A stretch of DNA of 64,000 nt from Gammaproteobacteria bacterium (GTDB lineage: Bacteria; Pseudomonadota; Gammaproteobacteria; Pseudomonadales; Azotimanducaceae), in NCBI GenBank assembly GCA_026708185.1, contig JAPOVK010000062.1, positions 1 through 64,000 of the forward strand, in the 5' to 3' direction. Below, piece after piece: positions 3,089 to 43,974 of this stretch. Below the pieces are notes generated by a model, which was not told where the DNA came from, made no database searches, and saw only the letters and a list, made by a program, of their open reading frames with translations. The position numbers were made by a program, and so were the translations under genes. Position 1 is the stretch's first letter; each line of letters starts with the position of its first letter.

Positions 3089-3177
3089 GAGCCCTCAGCC
3101 GGGGAGCGCGAGGGGCCCGCCCCTCGCAAGAAAGAGCCCTCAGCCGGGGAGCGCGAGGGCCCGCCCTCGCAAACAAG
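3089..3177 (+). repeat. Family A palindromic repeat, two tandem copies
   Basis: Two head-to-tail copies (3089-3133 and 3134-3177) share the lead GAGCCCTCAGCCGGGGAGC and then a hairpin. Copy 1 folds as GCGAGGGG-CCCG-CCCCTCGC (3108-3127). Copy 2 folds as GCGAGGG-CCCG-CCCTCGC (3153-3170), one base pair shorter on both arms, so the stem is preserved. A third copy lies at 13955-14002 inside a coding sequence. These two sit between the divergent exporter operon and the amidohydrolase gene. Translated on the minus strand they contain GPSRSPAEGS twice, the peptide seen in the third copy's host protein. Confidence 0.85.
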
Positions 3178-3198
3178 AGTGACCGTGGAGAGCGAGAC

Positions 3199-12800: not shown

Positions 12801-13157
12801 TCAGTTGAGCAGGAGACGATCGCGCGGCGTTAGTTCGGCGAACACCCGCCGGGCGACGAGGATTGCGATGCCCAAGGCCGCGATCACGAAGGCCACGAGC
12901 GGCACCAGAGTGAACGCGGCTAGCGCCCCAAAGCCGGGTCCGGCACCTCGCGTCCGCTCGGCACCGGCTCCGCCTCCGGCCCAAGGCCACGCCGACCGTC
13001 CATGGGACAGACGCCGTCGGTCGCTGCGCTTCCTTTGGCGTCTGTTCCATGGACGGCTGAGGAACGCGCCGAGCAGGCAACCGAGGAAGAAGCCTCTTCG
13101 GAACCCGAAGCGGCGGTAACCGGAGGGGGTGAGTCGTCGGGGTCGCCTGCTTCGCAT
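12801..13157 (-). CDS. Small membrane protein carrying an in-frame family B repeat
   Basis: A 118-residue hypothetical protein. Residues 1-35 are basic and then hydrophobic (GFFLGCLLGAFLS). Residues about 80-105 form one or two membrane segments (FTLVPLVAFVIAALGIAIL). Residues about 36-79 between them are encoded entirely by a copy of the family B repeat (12922-13052) and read as an Arg/Gly-rich stretch (SAWPWAGGGAGAERTRG). Without the repeat the protein would be about 74 residues. AGGAG lies 12-16 bases before the ATG. I do not recognise the family. That it is a real gene is moderately supported by the membrane pattern on both sides of the repeat; the alternative is an ORF made fortuitously long by it. 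Confidence 0.5.
   Translation of the reverse strand: MRSRRPRRLTPSGYRRFGFRRGFFLGCLLGAFLSRPWNRRQRKRSDRRRLSHGRSAWPWAGGGAGAERTRGAGPGFGALAAFTLVPLVAFVIAALGIAILVARRVFAELTPRDRLLLN
12922..13052 (-). repeat. Family B palindromic repeat, copy 3 (inside a reading frame)
   Basis: Read on the minus strand, a long hairpin (13000-13052; GGCGTCTGTTCCATGG on the plus strand pairs with its opposite arm, 16 pairs with one G-U) is followed by a 75-base core (12922-12996). The core differs at six positions from the two identical cores at 24280-24354 and 24412-24486. All three copies have the order hairpin then core. A second stem inside the core (CCGGTGCC with GGTGCCGG) is kept by wobble pairs. Confidence 0.85.
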
Positions 13158-13248: not shown

Positions 13249-15135
13249 CTACCGGTAGCGTCGCGCCTGCGTATTGAACATCGCCGCGTAGTGGCCGTCG
13301 CGAGCGATCAACTCGTCGTGCCCGCCGATCTCGATCACCCGGCCGCCCTCGATGACGACGATGAGGTCGGCCATGCGCACGGTCGAGAACCGGTGGGAGA
13401 TGAACACCACCGTCTTGTCGCCGGCCAGCGCGCCGACCTGTTCGTAAAGGCGATGCTCTCGGAATGCGTCGAGCGCGGCGGTCGGTTCGTCGAGCACGAG
13501 CATCTGGGCATCGCTCATGAACGCGCGCGAGATGGCCAGGTGCTGCCACTCGCCGCCCGACAGGTCGATGCCCTCGTCGAAGGTCTTGCCGAGGATCGTG
13601 TCGTAGCCGTCCGGCAGCTTGTCGATGATGTCGTGGGCACCGCCTTTCTCGGCGGCGGCGACAACGCGGGGTCGTTCGTCCATGGCGTCGGCTTGGCCAA
13701 GACCGACGTTGTCGGCAGCCGACAGGTCGTAGCGGAAGAAGTCCTGGAACACGACCGCCACGTGTCGGCGCAACTCGGCGAGGTCGTAGTCGCGGAGATC
13801 CTTCCCGTCGAGGAGGATCTCGCCCTCGGCGGGATCGTAGAGCCGGCTCAAGAGCTTCACCAGCGTGGTCTTGCCCGCCCCGTTCTCGCCGGCGATGGCG
13901 ACGCGTTGGCCCGCGGGAATCCGGAACGACACGTCGCGCAGGATCCAGGCGTCAGAGCCCTCAGCCGGGGAGCGCGAGGGGTCATCCCCTCGCAAGGAAG
14001 AACCCGGGTACTTGAACGAGACGTTGCGGAACTCGATGCCGCTCTGTATGGGCTTCGGGATGGGCTGGGCTGGCGAGTCGCGTTCCGCCAAGGCGCCGTC
14101 CACGGACTTGGTGTCGAGATCCAGGAACTCGAAGAAGCGGGTCGTGAACAGCGCGTTCTGGTAGACCGATCCGCCGGAACTGATCAACCCTGCCAGCAGG
14201 TTGCGGCTTTGCTGCGCGGCCTGGAAAACGAGGGCGAGGTCGCCGATCGTGATGTGCCCGAGCACGGCTTGGTAGACCGCGTAGCCCCAGATCGCACCGA
14301 CGCCGAGAAGGGACACCAGGTTGAGCCCTACGTTCACCTTGAAGATGTCGAAGACGAGCTTGCGGATGGCCGTCAGGTAGATGTCCCGGAACCGCTGGAA
14401 TCGCGACAGGAAGAGGTCGCGCAGCGTGAAGATGCGGACCTCCTTGGCACTGTCCCGATCGGTCAAGAGCCGCGCCATGTAATCGATCATGCGGTCGTTG
14501 CGGATGAGCTCCGCGTTCAGGTCGTAGCGCTTGCGGGCGAAGTGCCCCTCCACGAGGATGCGCGGCAGGGCGGTCAGGATGAGCAGCGCGATGGCGAGCG
14601 GGTGCAGGATCGACAGGAGGCTCACCATCGCGATGAGTGAGAACGCCTGCTGCATGAGCGAGATGGTCGACCAGGAGATGTTCGAGATCCGGTAGAACTG
14701 CTGGGTAGCGTGATGCAACTGGTCGTAGAACTTGGGCGTCTCGAAGAAGGCGATGTCGAGCGCCCCGGCCTTGTCGATGATGCGCTGCTTGGCGGTGTAC
14801 CAGATTCGCTCGCTCAAGATCTCCTGGACGAACCCGGACGCGGAGTCGAACGCGGCCTGCGAAACCCACAGTCCGAAAAGGACGGCCAGCGGCATGAACA
14901 CGATGCCCCAAGCCATCGTGCCGCCGCTTGCCGCGACCACGCCGTCGATGATGACCTTGGTCATGTAGACGATGGCCGCCGGGATCACGGCGGTCGCAAC
15001 CATCAGCGCGCAGGCCACGACGAGGAAGCCGGGCGCCACTTCCCACATGAAGGCGAATACGCGCGGCACGATCAGCGCGATGTCGCGCAACGTGTGGAAC
15101 GTGCCCTGTTCCGGAGGGCGGAACTGGTCGGACAT
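13249..15135 (-). CDS. ABC exporter, membrane domain fused to ATPase, with in-frame family A insertion
   Basis: A 628-residue half-transporter. Membrane segments occupy about 20-330 (FLVVACALMVATAVIPAAIV and others). The nucleotide-binding domain (about 360-610) has Walker A (GENGAGKTT), Q-loop (VVFQDFFR), a signature altered to LSGGEWQ, Walker B (MLVLDEPTAALD) and the H-loop (FISHR). Residues about 379-394 (SLRGDDPSRSPAEGS) are encoded exactly by a family A palindromic repeat, in the turn between FRNVSFKYPG and ILRDVSFRI ahead of Walker A. The frame stays open, so the protein is probably functional. It would act as a homodimer or with another half; substrate unknown. No accessory export gene adjoins it. 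Confidence 0.9.
   Translation of the reverse strand: MSDQFRPPEQGTFHTLRDIALIVPRVFAFMWEVAPGFLVVACALMVATAVIPAAIVYMTKVIIDGVVAASGGTMAWGIVFMPLAVLFGLWVSQAAFDSASGFVQEILSERIWYTAKQRIIDKAGALDIAFFETPKFYDQLHHATQQFYRISNISWSTISLMQQAFSLIAMVSLLSILHPLAIALLILTALPRILVEGHFARKRYDLNAELIRNDRMIDYMARLLTDRDSAKEVRIFTLRDLFLSRFQRFRDIYLTAIRKLVFDIFKVNVGLNLVSLLGVGAIWGYAVYQAVLGHITIGDLALVFQAAQQSRNLLAGLISSGGSVYQNALFTTRFFEFLDLDTKSVDGALAERDSPAQPIPKPIQSGIEFRNVSFKYPGSSLRGDDPSRSPAEGSDAWILRDVSFRIPAGQRVAIAGENGAGKTTLVKLLSRLYDPAEGEILLDGKDLRDYDLAELRRHVAVVFQDFFRYDLSAADNVGLGQADAMDERPRVVAAAEKGGAHDIIDKLPDGYDTILGKTFDEGIDLSGGEWQHLAISRAFMSDAQMLVLDEPTAALDAFREHRLYEQVGALAGDKTVVFISHRFSTVRMADLIVVIEGGRVIEIGGHDELIARDGHYAAMFNTQARRYR
13955..14002 (+). 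repeat. Family A palindromic repeat, copy 3, in frame within the ABC exporter gene
   Basis: This 48-base copy shares GAGCCCTCAGCCGGGGAGC with the copies at 3089 and 3134, then folds as GCGAGGGG-TCAT-CCCCTCGC (13974-13993). The loop differs from the CCCG of the other copies, while the 8-pair stem is perfect. Its length is 16 codons, so the host frame is kept. Confidence 0.85.
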
Positions 15136-23433: not shown

Positions 23434-24183
23434 ATGGCCGAAGCCCGCCTGAAGCTCGTACGCCAAAACGCGGACGCGCCTTGTCCACGGCATCTCGCGA
23501 TCGTGATGGACGGCAACCACCGCTGGGCGCGAGGTCGCCGGTTGCCGCGCGCGGCGGGGCACCGGGCCGGCGCGCAGAATGTCAAGGTGATTGCCAAGGC
23601 TTGTGCCGACCGTGGTGTCGAATGCCTGACCTTGTTCGCGTTCAGTACCGAGAACTGGGCGCGGCCGCGGCGTGAAGTGAACGTGCTTCTGGACCTCATG
23701 CGCGGCGTCCTCACCGAGGACCTCGAGGAACTGAACGAGAAAGGGGCGCAGTTGCGCTTCATCGGCGACCGAAGCCGGTTCCCCGACGACCTGCAGGCAT
23801 TGATGGGTCGCGCCGAGAGGCGCACCGCCGGAAACGACAGGCTCAACCTTGCCATCGCCGTCAACTACGGCGGTCGTTGGGATATCGTGGAGGCGGCACG
23901 CCGTCTCGCCGCCGGGGTCCGAGACGGCGCACTGGACCCCGAGGCGATTGACGAGCGGTGCTTCGCAACGCAACTCTCTCTCGGCGATCTTCCGCCACCG
24001 GATCTGTGCATTCGCACCGGCGGCGACCGCCGGATCAGTAACTTCCTGCTGTGGGATTTCGCGTACACCGAGTTCTATTTCACACCGCGTTTCTGGCCCG
24101 ATTTCGCCCCCGAGCACCTGGACCACGCGTTCGCCGATTTCGCATCGCGGCAGCGCCGGTATGGTCGGAGGGCGTCCGCCTGA
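23434..24183 (+). CDS. uppS: Isoprenyl transferase (undecaprenyl diphosphate synthase)
   Basis: A 249-residue cis-prenyltransferase with the catalytic Asp in HLAIVMDGNHRWA (about 26), FAFSTENWARP (about 70-80) and the substrate-binding RTGGDRRISNFLLWDFAYTE (about 190-210). It makes the C55 lipid carrier for peptidoglycan and O-antigen from isopentenyl diphosphate. It starts the envelope gene run uppS-cdsA-rseP-bamA, though the usual upstream neighbours (rpsB, tsf, pyrH, frr) are absent. Between it and cdsA lie two family B repeats. A TACAGT box 33-38 bases before the ATG may be its -10. Confidence 0.96.
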   Translation: MAEARLKLVRQNADAPCPRHLAIVMDGNHRWARGRRLPRAAGHRAGAQNVKVIAKACADRGVECLTLFAFSTENWARPRREVNVLLDLMRGVLTEDLEELNEKGAQLRFIGDRSRFPDDLQALMGRAERRTAGNDRLNLAIAVNYGGRWDIVEAARRLAAGVRDGALDPEAIDERCFATQLSLGDLPPPDLCIRTGGDRRISNFLLWDFAYTEFYFTPRFWPDFAPEHLDHAFADFASRQRRYGRRASA

Positions 24184-24223
24184 GCGGACTCCGGACGTCG
24201 CCGCGGCCCGACTTGGGGACCTT

Positions 24224-24354
24224 CCATGGAACAAACACCAGAGGGAGCCCAGCGACCGTCGGTGGTTGTTCCATGGATGGTCGGAGTGGCCTTGGGCCGG
24301 AGGCGAAGCCGGTGCCGAGCGAACGCGAGGTACCGGACACGGCTATGGGGCGCT
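24224..24354 (+). repeat. Family B palindromic repeat, copy 1
   Basis: A hairpin whose arms are CCATGGAACAAACACC (24224-24239) and GGTGGTTGTTCCATGG (24261-24276), with one mismatch, is followed by a 75-base core (24280-24354). The core contains a second stem, CCGGTGCC with GGTACCGG. It lies between uppS and cdsA, in tandem with copy 2 at a period of 132 bases. Confidence 0.88.
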
Positions 24355-24357
24355 CGC

Positions 24358-24486
24358 ATGAAACAAATGCCAGAGCGAGCGCAGCGAGCGGCGGCGGTTG
24401 TTTCATGCGGGGTCGGAGTGGCCTTGGGCCGGAGGCGAAGCCGGTGCCGAGCGAACGCGAGGTACCGGACACGGCTATGGGGCGCT
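24358..24486 (+). repeat. Family B palindromic repeat, copy 2
   Basis: Arms CATGAAACAAATGCC and GGCGGTTGTTTCATG (24358-24407) are followed by a core (24412-24486) identical over 75 bases to copy 1. The arms differ from those of copies 1 and 3 but still pair, so base changes are compensated. It ends 37 bases before cdsA. Confidence 0.88.
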
Positions 24487-39866: not shown

Positions 39867-41078
39867 ATGTCGATCATCGAGACGATCCGGGTCGCATTGG
39901 CATCGATCATCGCCAACCTGCTGCGTTCGAGCCTGACCATGCTCGGCATCATCATCGGCGTGGCGGCGGTGATCACCATGGTGGCGCTCGGCACGGGCGC
40001 CCAGCGCGCCGTGGACGAGCAGATCGACCAACTCGGCCCGCGCGTGCTCTCGGTCATGGCAGGCCAGTCGTTCCGACGGGGTGTTGCATCCGCCAACCGC
40101 GTCTCGCTCACCGTCGACGACTACGAGGCTCTGGTTCGGGACGCGCCGCTGCTTGCCGAGGTCGTGCCTGAACTCTCCGGCGGCCTCCAGATCAAGTACG
40201 GAAACAAGAACCTGTACCACGACGTGGTCGGCACAACGACGAACTTCCCGGGCGTGCACGGCGTCGACATCGACGTGGGCGCCATGTTCACGGCGAGCGA
40301 CCTCGCTGCGCGTCGGCGCGTCGTCGTGCTCGGCAGCGAGATACCCCAGAACCTCGAAATGGAGCCGGAGAACCTGATCGGCCGTACGCTCAACATCAAC
40401 CGCATTCCGTTCGAGATCATCGGCGTCTTCGAGGCGGTCGGCGAGCGCTTCGGCCCGGAACCAGACGACCGCGTGTTCATTCCACTGACCACCGCCGAGC
40501 TGCGCGTCTTCGGTCAAGACCGGTTGCGCGGCTTGTCCGCGCAGGTGGCGGACGGCGTGTCCCTGGAGATGGGCATGGTGGACATCGAGCGCGTGCTGCG
40601 TCGCGAGCACAAGATCCGCCCCGGCCAGGACAACGACTTCATGATCATGAACCGGCGCCAGTTCATGGAGATGGCGCAGGCGTCCACCGAGATCTTCGCG
40701 TTCCTGCTCGCCTCGATCGCCGGCGTCAGCCTGCTCGTCGGCGGCATCGGGATCATGAACATCATGCTCGTATCCGTTACCGAGCGCACACGCGAGATCG
40801 GCGTGCGCAAGGCCCTCGGGGCGACGCGGTTCAACATCCTCATGCAGTTCGTGATCGAGGCGCTGACCATCGGCGCCCTCGGCGGCGTGCTCGGCATCGC
40901 GCTCGGCGCCGGGGGCGCCTGGGGATTGATCGAGTTCGCCAACTGGAACGTGTTCATCTCCGCCGACGCGGTACTGCTCGCGGTCGTGTTCAGCGTCGGC
41001 GTCGGACTCTTCTTCGGCATCTGGCCCGCGCGGCGGGCGGCGCAACTCGATCCGATCGAGGCGCTACGTCACGACTGA
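39867..41078 (+). CDS. Orphan MacB-like ABC permease, near-duplicate of left-edge gene
   Basis: A complete 403-residue FtsX-fold permease: helix 1 TMLGIIIGVAAVITMVALG (about 22-40), a periplasmic domain, and three C-terminal helices including LLASIAGVSLLVGGIGIMNI and VLLAVVFSVGVGLFFGIW. It closely matches the partial gene at 1-751 in bases and residues, for instance both have GQSFxRGVASANRVSLTVDD. No ATPase or adaptor is next to it, so it may work with the proteins encoded at 764-3015. The start at 39867 matches that of the duplicate; an ATG three codons earlier is possible. Confidence 0.9.
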   Translation: MSIIETIRVALASIIANLLRSSLTMLGIIIGVAAVITMVALGTGAQRAVDEQIDQLGPRVLSVMAGQSFRRGVASANRVSLTVDDYEALVRDAPLLAEVVPELSGGLQIKYGNKNLYHDVVGTTTNFPGVHGVDIDVGAMFTASDLAARRRVVVLGSEIPQNLEMEPENLIGRTLNINRIPFEIIGVFEAVGERFGPEPDDRVFIPLTTAELRVFGQDRLRGLSAQVADGVSLEMGMVDIERVLRREHKIRPGQDNDFMIMNRRQFMEMAQASTEIFAFLLASIAGVSLLVGGIGIMNIMLVSVTERTREIGVRKALGATRFNILMQFVIEALTIGALGGVLGIALGAGGAWGLIEFANWNVFISADAVLLAVVFSVGVGLFFGIWPARRAAQLDPIEALRHD

Positions 41079-41137: not shown

Positions 41138-41212
41138 GTTCGTGCTGGCGTTTGCCCGGAGGCGTCGTTTCCTCCCTGGGCAAGGGCATCGTCAGCGGGT
41201 CCCTGGCCGCTG
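41138..41212 (+). pseudogene. Decayed copy of the pyrG 5' region
   Basis: 41161-41212 matches 42301-42352 of pyrG at 47 of 52 positions and in frame reads [18 protein letters not shown], the CTP synthase P-loop region. Just before it, 41138-41159 matches 42164-42191 upstream of pyrG apart from a six-base gap. The roughly 110 bases between those blocks in the intact locus, with the start codon and likely promoter, are missing. It is a remnant without a start. No recognisable gene covers the rest of 41079-41358. Confidence 0.75.

Positions 41213-42153: not shown

Positions 42154-43974
<1,821 letters not shown>

Follow-up and report, generated by a model that had tools for sequence, protein, structure and literature searches.

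Mobile two-hairpin palindromic repeats with a CT insertion footprint, some in frame within conserved protein genes of a gammaproteobacterial genus

Three copies of a palindromic repeat, here called family B, lie in a 64,000-nucleotide stretch of gammaproteobacterial DNA (the window), one of them inside an open reading frame, which raises the question of what kind of element this is, how it moves, and what happens to genes that receive it. The copies had been placed at 12922-13052 (minus strand), 24224-24354 and 24358-24486 by the initial annotation; all three were confirmed, with ends now set by CT dinucleotides to give 132 nt each:

12922-13053, minus strand: first copy, full length, 132 nt, right-end CT at 12922-12923; the left dinucleotide (13054-13055) is CG, not CT.
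24223-24354, plus strand: second copy, full length, 132 nt, preceded by CT at 24221-24222 and with terminal CT at 24353-24354.
24355-24486, plus strand: third copy, full length, 132 nt, head to tail with the second, terminal CT at 24485-24486.
23434-24183, plus strand: gene upstream of the tandem copies; presumably undecaprenyl diphosphate synthase, by its motifs.

Comparison of the window with itself returned the tandem pair as repeats at 24214-24345 and 24346-24477, spaced 132 nt apart and 88% alike, and the minus-strand copy is 84-86% complementary to both. The third copy has a 129-base identical match elsewhere in the window's own genome (G000:C31:103895-104023). Other repeats of the window are a second palindromic repeat, family A (GAGCCCTCAGCCGGGGAGCGCGAGGGG; 3089-3139, 3134-3184 and 13955-14005), a 53-nt repeat at 41158-41210 and 42298-42350 (91% alike) that seems to duplicate part of the beginning of the 42184-43974 gene, and an inverted repeat of 751 nt at 1-751 and 39867-40617 (89% complementary), probably two paralogous genes.

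The suggestion that the copies belong to a genome-wide palindromic family was borne out. A 129-base query, with 40 of 120 first-look candidates scored, gave at least 44 matches in the window's own genome (a 5.13-Mb assembly of 65 contigs, several of which end within copies), far above chance. Matches were found in 16 of the 38 genomes searched, the window's own included: 14 of the 16 genomes of its genus, and two in other genera of the family (G019 and G021, E 1.3e-7 and 8.4e-4). A pattern scan of species genomes found at least 96 stretches, in records that are bins of uncultured Gammaproteobacteria or Pseudomonadales (for example SB0662_bin_58, COS4_bin_44 and RHO1_bin_53), whose names lead us to take them for sponge symbionts. 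The same exact pattern had no match among viral contigs, nor did a search for family B match any plasmid.

Family B is mobile, and its insertion leaves a CT footprint. Eight distinct sites were returned by comparison among the genomes, of which five are clean element-free sites. At one, within a family-A repeat (L013), the relative G007 reads CCC-CT-CGCAAG and the window's genome reads CCC-CT, the element, and then CT-CGCAAG. The element-free sequences of the others are CGC-CT-TCCAT (L235), GTA-CT-TTCAT (L018), TCA-CT-TTCAT (L007, where the occupied copy now ends in GT) and GTC-CT-TAAGG (L267, where G007 has the copy and the window's genome does not). Because all five element-free sites keep the CT, insertion adds the element and one CT, with no longer duplication. 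A further site (L211) agrees with the footprint and was left out of the five, having drifted. Two more fit in length and were excluded, the relative having no CT there: a TonB gene, and the site between the 23434-24183 gene and the next gene, where G007 lacks both tandem copies and there is no CT at the joint. The pair L265/L227 was rejected as an element-free site, being a partial deletion, and the partial copy at L227 was also dropped. A B copy lies in family A, apparently at the same CT, at both L013 and L031.

The same dinucleotide marks the ends of the copies at large, with C and T at 97% and 93% on the left of 113 full copies and at 92% and 98% on the right of 161. Among 151 non-tandem copies the right flank reads CT-NN-CAT in 22 (background 22/5908), although at least four of these 22 resemble the start of another copy and one is listed twice, and CT-ACG in 55 (background 2.4%). 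On the opposite strand the CT-ACG class gives CGTAG, and several of its members adjoin another palindrome family. No replication-strand bias was detected by GC skew (64 of 130 positive). No long autonomous element with family B ends is claimed; the partial matches showed only composites with another repeat.

Each of the three copies in the window has a more stable fold than its dinucleotide shuffles (z -5.74, -5.66 and -4.57). The hairpin and the core with a second stem described by the initial annotation correspond to a 5' hairpin, H1, and a core containing a second hairpin, H2, which in the second copy are:

24222-24278, plus strand: H1, an imperfect stem with tip GA-GC-loop-GC-GA, supported by covariation; fold as single-stranded DNA -20.9 kcal/mol, z -6.35.
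24296-24354, plus strand: core with H2, conserved TGGGCC-NNAG ahead of the stem and TGGGGCGCT at the 3' end, supported by covariation; DNA fold weak, z -0.31.

In the common forms both hairpins carry the same mismatched tip. As single-stranded DNA H1 folds strongly (z -6.35 and -5.59), whereas H2 alone does no better than its shuffles. Profile searches of the examined loci gave 152 full-length hits, reduced to 104 distinct copies and to 77 differing by more than 6%, from which 48 were picked by hand for alignment; of the 29 left out, most have an extra hairpin in a loop and six do not. These extra modules, as read from their sequences, can themselves form hairpins. Composite repeats in which a B-like H1 hairpin is followed by a GAATTC-containing palindrome occur at L042, L109 and L047.

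RNAalifold assigned 34 base pairs to the 48 copies. Pairing is kept in 94.7% of cells, against 87.1% in shuffles and 33-46% when the partner is slid. That the arms differ in bases yet still pair had been noticed from the window's copies, and an excess of covarying pairs across many copies had been named beforehand as a test; this excess was found, with changes on both sides that preserve pairing in 20 of the 34 pairs (123 cells). None of 500 shuffles reached any of five covariation measures, a figure that is not a probability, since the copies are related. Among the other cells 74 are G-U and 24 A-C, for which reason the written strand seems to be the folded one, although by pairs the contrast is small (20 with G-U, 18 with A-C).

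From these features we consider it most likely, with rather better than even confidence, that family B is a non-autonomous element of REP/RPE-like kind that moves as folded single-stranded DNA, served in trans by an enzyme of the RAYT/TnpA_REP type. The element, 126-150 nt in its common forms, folds on one strand into two hairpins with a common mismatched tip, and would be cut and joined in this form by an HUH tyrosine transposase. As the five element-free sites show, it inserts directly after a CT and, itself ending in CT, leaves CT on both sides with nothing else duplicated. According to the part of PMC8266576 that was available, TnpA_REP of E. coli cuts single strands strand-specifically at CT 5' or 3' of the REP hairpin, and CT is likewise the cut site of the Stenotrophomonas enzyme; that of E. 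coli requires GTAG, the last two bases of which are thought to choose the CT, and is harmed in its activity when the mismatch of the REP stem is mended, selection at those bases being only moderate. In all 48 aligned copies the tetranucleotide preceding H2 has AG as its last two bases (GGAG in 41), which we count in favour of a RAYT enzyme. Family B resembles TnpA_REP substrates in that CT stands at either end, its hairpins contain mismatches, one strand is preferred and AG precedes H2. Counted against such an enzyme are the lack of a replication-strand bias, the weak DNA fold of H2, the folded strand's lack of GTAG, a length greater than that of REPs, and an H1 with no preceding guide inside the element.

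A RAYT-like gene family, which we take to carry HUH-type motifs, is present in the genus. It is represented by numerous copies or fragments, frequently at the ends of contigs, and in JAJDTI010000105.1 (L134, 6897-6972) a B core lies within a RAYT-like gene. One RAYT family, searched with one protein as query, matches in 10 of the 16 genus genomes. With 23 candidates scored per genome, so that all counts are lower bounds, these ten have at least 5-27 B matches and the other six at least 0-5 (rank test p 0.0016, kinship ignored). In four of the ten (G001, G004, G006 and G011) the RAYT matches are short pieces only, of 22-83 residues, which counts against the association. The Pfam family Y1_Tnp has no match at E<=0.001 in the B-rich genomes G006 and G011 and one match each in the B-poor G005, G009 and G014, whose Y1 genes the RAYT query misses. 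RAYT genes often carry cognate REPs. No B copy was seen in 19 RAYT loci or in a partly overlapping set of 17, with flanks of up to about 1.5 kb that often stop at a contig end, and two RAYT loci of the window's genome (L145 and L146) carry another repeat, AACATCGCCC. As family B was not seen near the RAYT genes in the loci examined, we only infer that a RAYT enzyme moves it, and name it the likeliest mover.

The absence of B from these loci and of GTAG from the folded strand would also suit movement of the same element by another enzyme that uses a CT core, such as an IS110-type recombinase, a serine recombinase or another, and CT on both sides is likewise compatible with a two-base core exchange. 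We regard this as rather unlikely. To our knowledge dimer recombinases need no covarying single-strand hairpins, which we count against them. IS110 genes (PF01548) have no match in the B-rich genomes G003, G006, G008 and G011, and 11 and 19 matches in G013 and G015, both of them without B matches; IS110 was rejected as mobiliser, its distribution being opposite to that of family B.

The strong structure and the RNA-like bias towards G-U wobbles could also be read as signs that family B is kept as an RNA element (an mRNA end, a terminator or a small RNA) whose copies spread only secondarily, and 32 copies lie between convergent genes against 13 between divergent ones. This is improbable: between tandem genes 32 copies are sense and 30 antisense, so there is no sign of a role in mRNA, no Rfam family matches the element, the aligned copies have no T run after the hairpins, and orthologous places in a close relative are without copies.

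One copy in the window had been placed inside the gene of a small membrane protein:

12801-13157, minus strand: open reading frame of 118 amino acids, judged not to be a supported gene.

The element does supply 44 of the 118 residues (codons 36-79), as first noted, yet the small membrane protein itself finds no convincing homologues and no Pfam match over the whole ORF. Under a codon-usage model for which 18 long window ORFs served as training set, the ORF scores -4 in all (-3.8 before the element, -23.6 within it and +23.3 after it), and only its last codons, past the element, resemble coding sequence. Across the 16 genus genomes the 38 residues that follow the element find, apart from themselves, a single place at E 0.89, and alone they give a weak Pfam hit under its cut-off (E 0.03). 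Neither the part before the element, searched in the examined loci only, nor the part after it has a convincing match in those loci. A comparison with relatives had been proposed for this gene; in G007 the interval between its two neighbours differs widely in sequence. The ORF is thus an unproven gene.

The initial annotation had further proposed that insertion into reading frames is a general habit in this genome. The ORF does not stand as an example of it, but the habit of sometimes lying within protein frames is supported by other genes: in-frame copies lie in those for TonB, an MFS transporter and the protein AlkD, and relatives have each gene without the copy. In TonB of the window's own genome (L230) the orthologue of G007 aligns on both sides, in a protein alignment, and lacks 44 residues of a proline-rich linker. 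The MFS transporter of G008 has 507 residues against 458-465 in six aligned relatives (a gap of 42-43), the insert falling between the protein's two halves, and that of G012 likewise matches in two separate parts, judging by split matches only. In AlkD of G002 residues 51-126 correspond to a composite of B with another repeat, absent from the aligned proteins of G003, G004, G006 and G010 and, by split matches, from G000, G005, G007, G008, G009 and G014; in G011 a shorter piece of the core occupies this position, also in frame. Location in a gene is a minority outcome: of 123 distinct copies, 15 were assigned to genes and 108 to the spaces between them by a rough gene caller based on codon usage. 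Six of 138 copies are flanked on either side by coding-like sequence in a single open frame (scores above 20 for both flanks), and in each of the six the element runs in sense, two of the six being the same gene in two genomes; the cases so scored include L221, which has no Pfam match, and L066. An ORF with Fic domains (L182, 1368-2558) has a B copy near its start.

The common lengths of family B (126, 129, 132 and 150 nt) are all multiples of three, and this property, together with few sense stops, lets some insertions into genes remain in frame and add 42-44 residues, as in TonB and the MFS transporter; in AlkD the in-frame insert is a longer composite. Lengths are divisible by three in 63 of 103 distinct copies (42 of 76 representatives), shuffles have 187 sense stop triplets where the copies have 81 (for antisense, 97 and 81), and the consensus is open in all three sense frames. 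In simulations new sense stops were fewer than expected in the short-core subfamily (19 against 35.5-40.5) and as expected in the long-core subfamily (19 against 18.8-23.5), while new antisense stops were fewer in both (0 against 6.6-8.8, and 11 against about 20). As the sense deficit is confined to the short cores and the antisense deficit is found in both subfamilies, selection on the sense frame is not clearly indicated. Hence the idea that selection for translation keeps family B as an RPE-like, coding-compatible protein module, to which the lengths, the scarcity of sense stops and the sense orientation of the six best in-gene copies would be congenial, is the least probable of the readings weighed here, given a stop deficit that is not sense-specific, related copies whose length and stop counts are not independent, and a mostly intergenic distribution.

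Family B works like REP and RPE elements, yet is a member of neither. With REP/BIME sequences and TnpA_REP it shares, so far as the available parts of PMC8266576, PMC3733652 and PMC6006769 describe them, high-copy hairpins, CT cut sites (in B, CT at the five element-free sites and at copy ends), mismatched stems of the E. coli type, strand specificity, arrays and mosaics, and some intragenic copies (intragenic REPs, PMC3733652). REPs measure 21-65 nt (PMC6006769, in part) and family B, with its two hairpins, 126-150 nt; in place of GTAG 5' of the hairpin the folded B strand has NNAG before H2, GTAG appearing on the opposite strand at copies with a CT-ACG right flank; and the REP habit of lying beside a cognate RAYT gene was not seen in the RAYT loci with their short flanks. 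Rickettsia palindromic elements are palindromes of 105-146 bp (PMC2229807), a range that covers the 126-132 nt forms of family B and falls slightly short of its 150-nt form. They too are fused in frame within conserved protein genes and also lie between genes (PMC2229807 and PMC10969869, as far as available). RPEs are described with 12 bp terminal inverted repeats (PMC2229807), which family B lacks (by eye, its ends are TCSCATGG and AGCGCCCC); family B also differs in host lineage and in its mapped CT insertion site. GTAG, size and proximity to RAYT genes thus set it apart from REPs, and terminal inverted repeats from RPEs.

Bacterial MITEs (ERIC, NEMIS, RUP) are likewise small non-autonomous repeats, some with ORFs (PMC2229807, in part), but family B lacks terminal inverted repeats and duplicates no more of its target than the CT that is shared at element-free sites. 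For an IS110-derived element, a cognate IS110 gene would be expected in the genomes rich in it, and G003, G006, G008 and G011, rich in family B, are without PF01548. IS200/IS605 elements make no target duplication. Their ends resemble family B in forming single-strand hairpins next to a fixed flanking motif (PMC6006769, in part); family B differs in having no transposase inside and in its motif, a CT whose right-hand context is CAT or ACG.

The means by which palindromes that insert into proteins, RPEs among them, are mobilised is a standing question. Family B bears on it: there are recent insertions for which element-free relatives exist, the insertion site is mapped, and the genomes concerned also contain a candidate enzyme family. 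Tentatively, family B may be a genus-wide hairpin of single-strand type, compatible with translation, that invades conserved proteins in frame and so links RPE-like insertion to CT-cutting RAYT enzymes. If this is true, RPE-type repeats would gain a link to an enzyme that they have so far lacked; CGTC repeats, including RPE-4 and RPE-6, are without a dedicated transposase in the available part of a survey (PMC3733652). The in-frame copies would be natural tests of the tolerance of TonB and an MFS transporter to about 43 extra residues, and of AlkD to more, and family B would offer a way to study the spread of hairpin elements and their effect on proteins.
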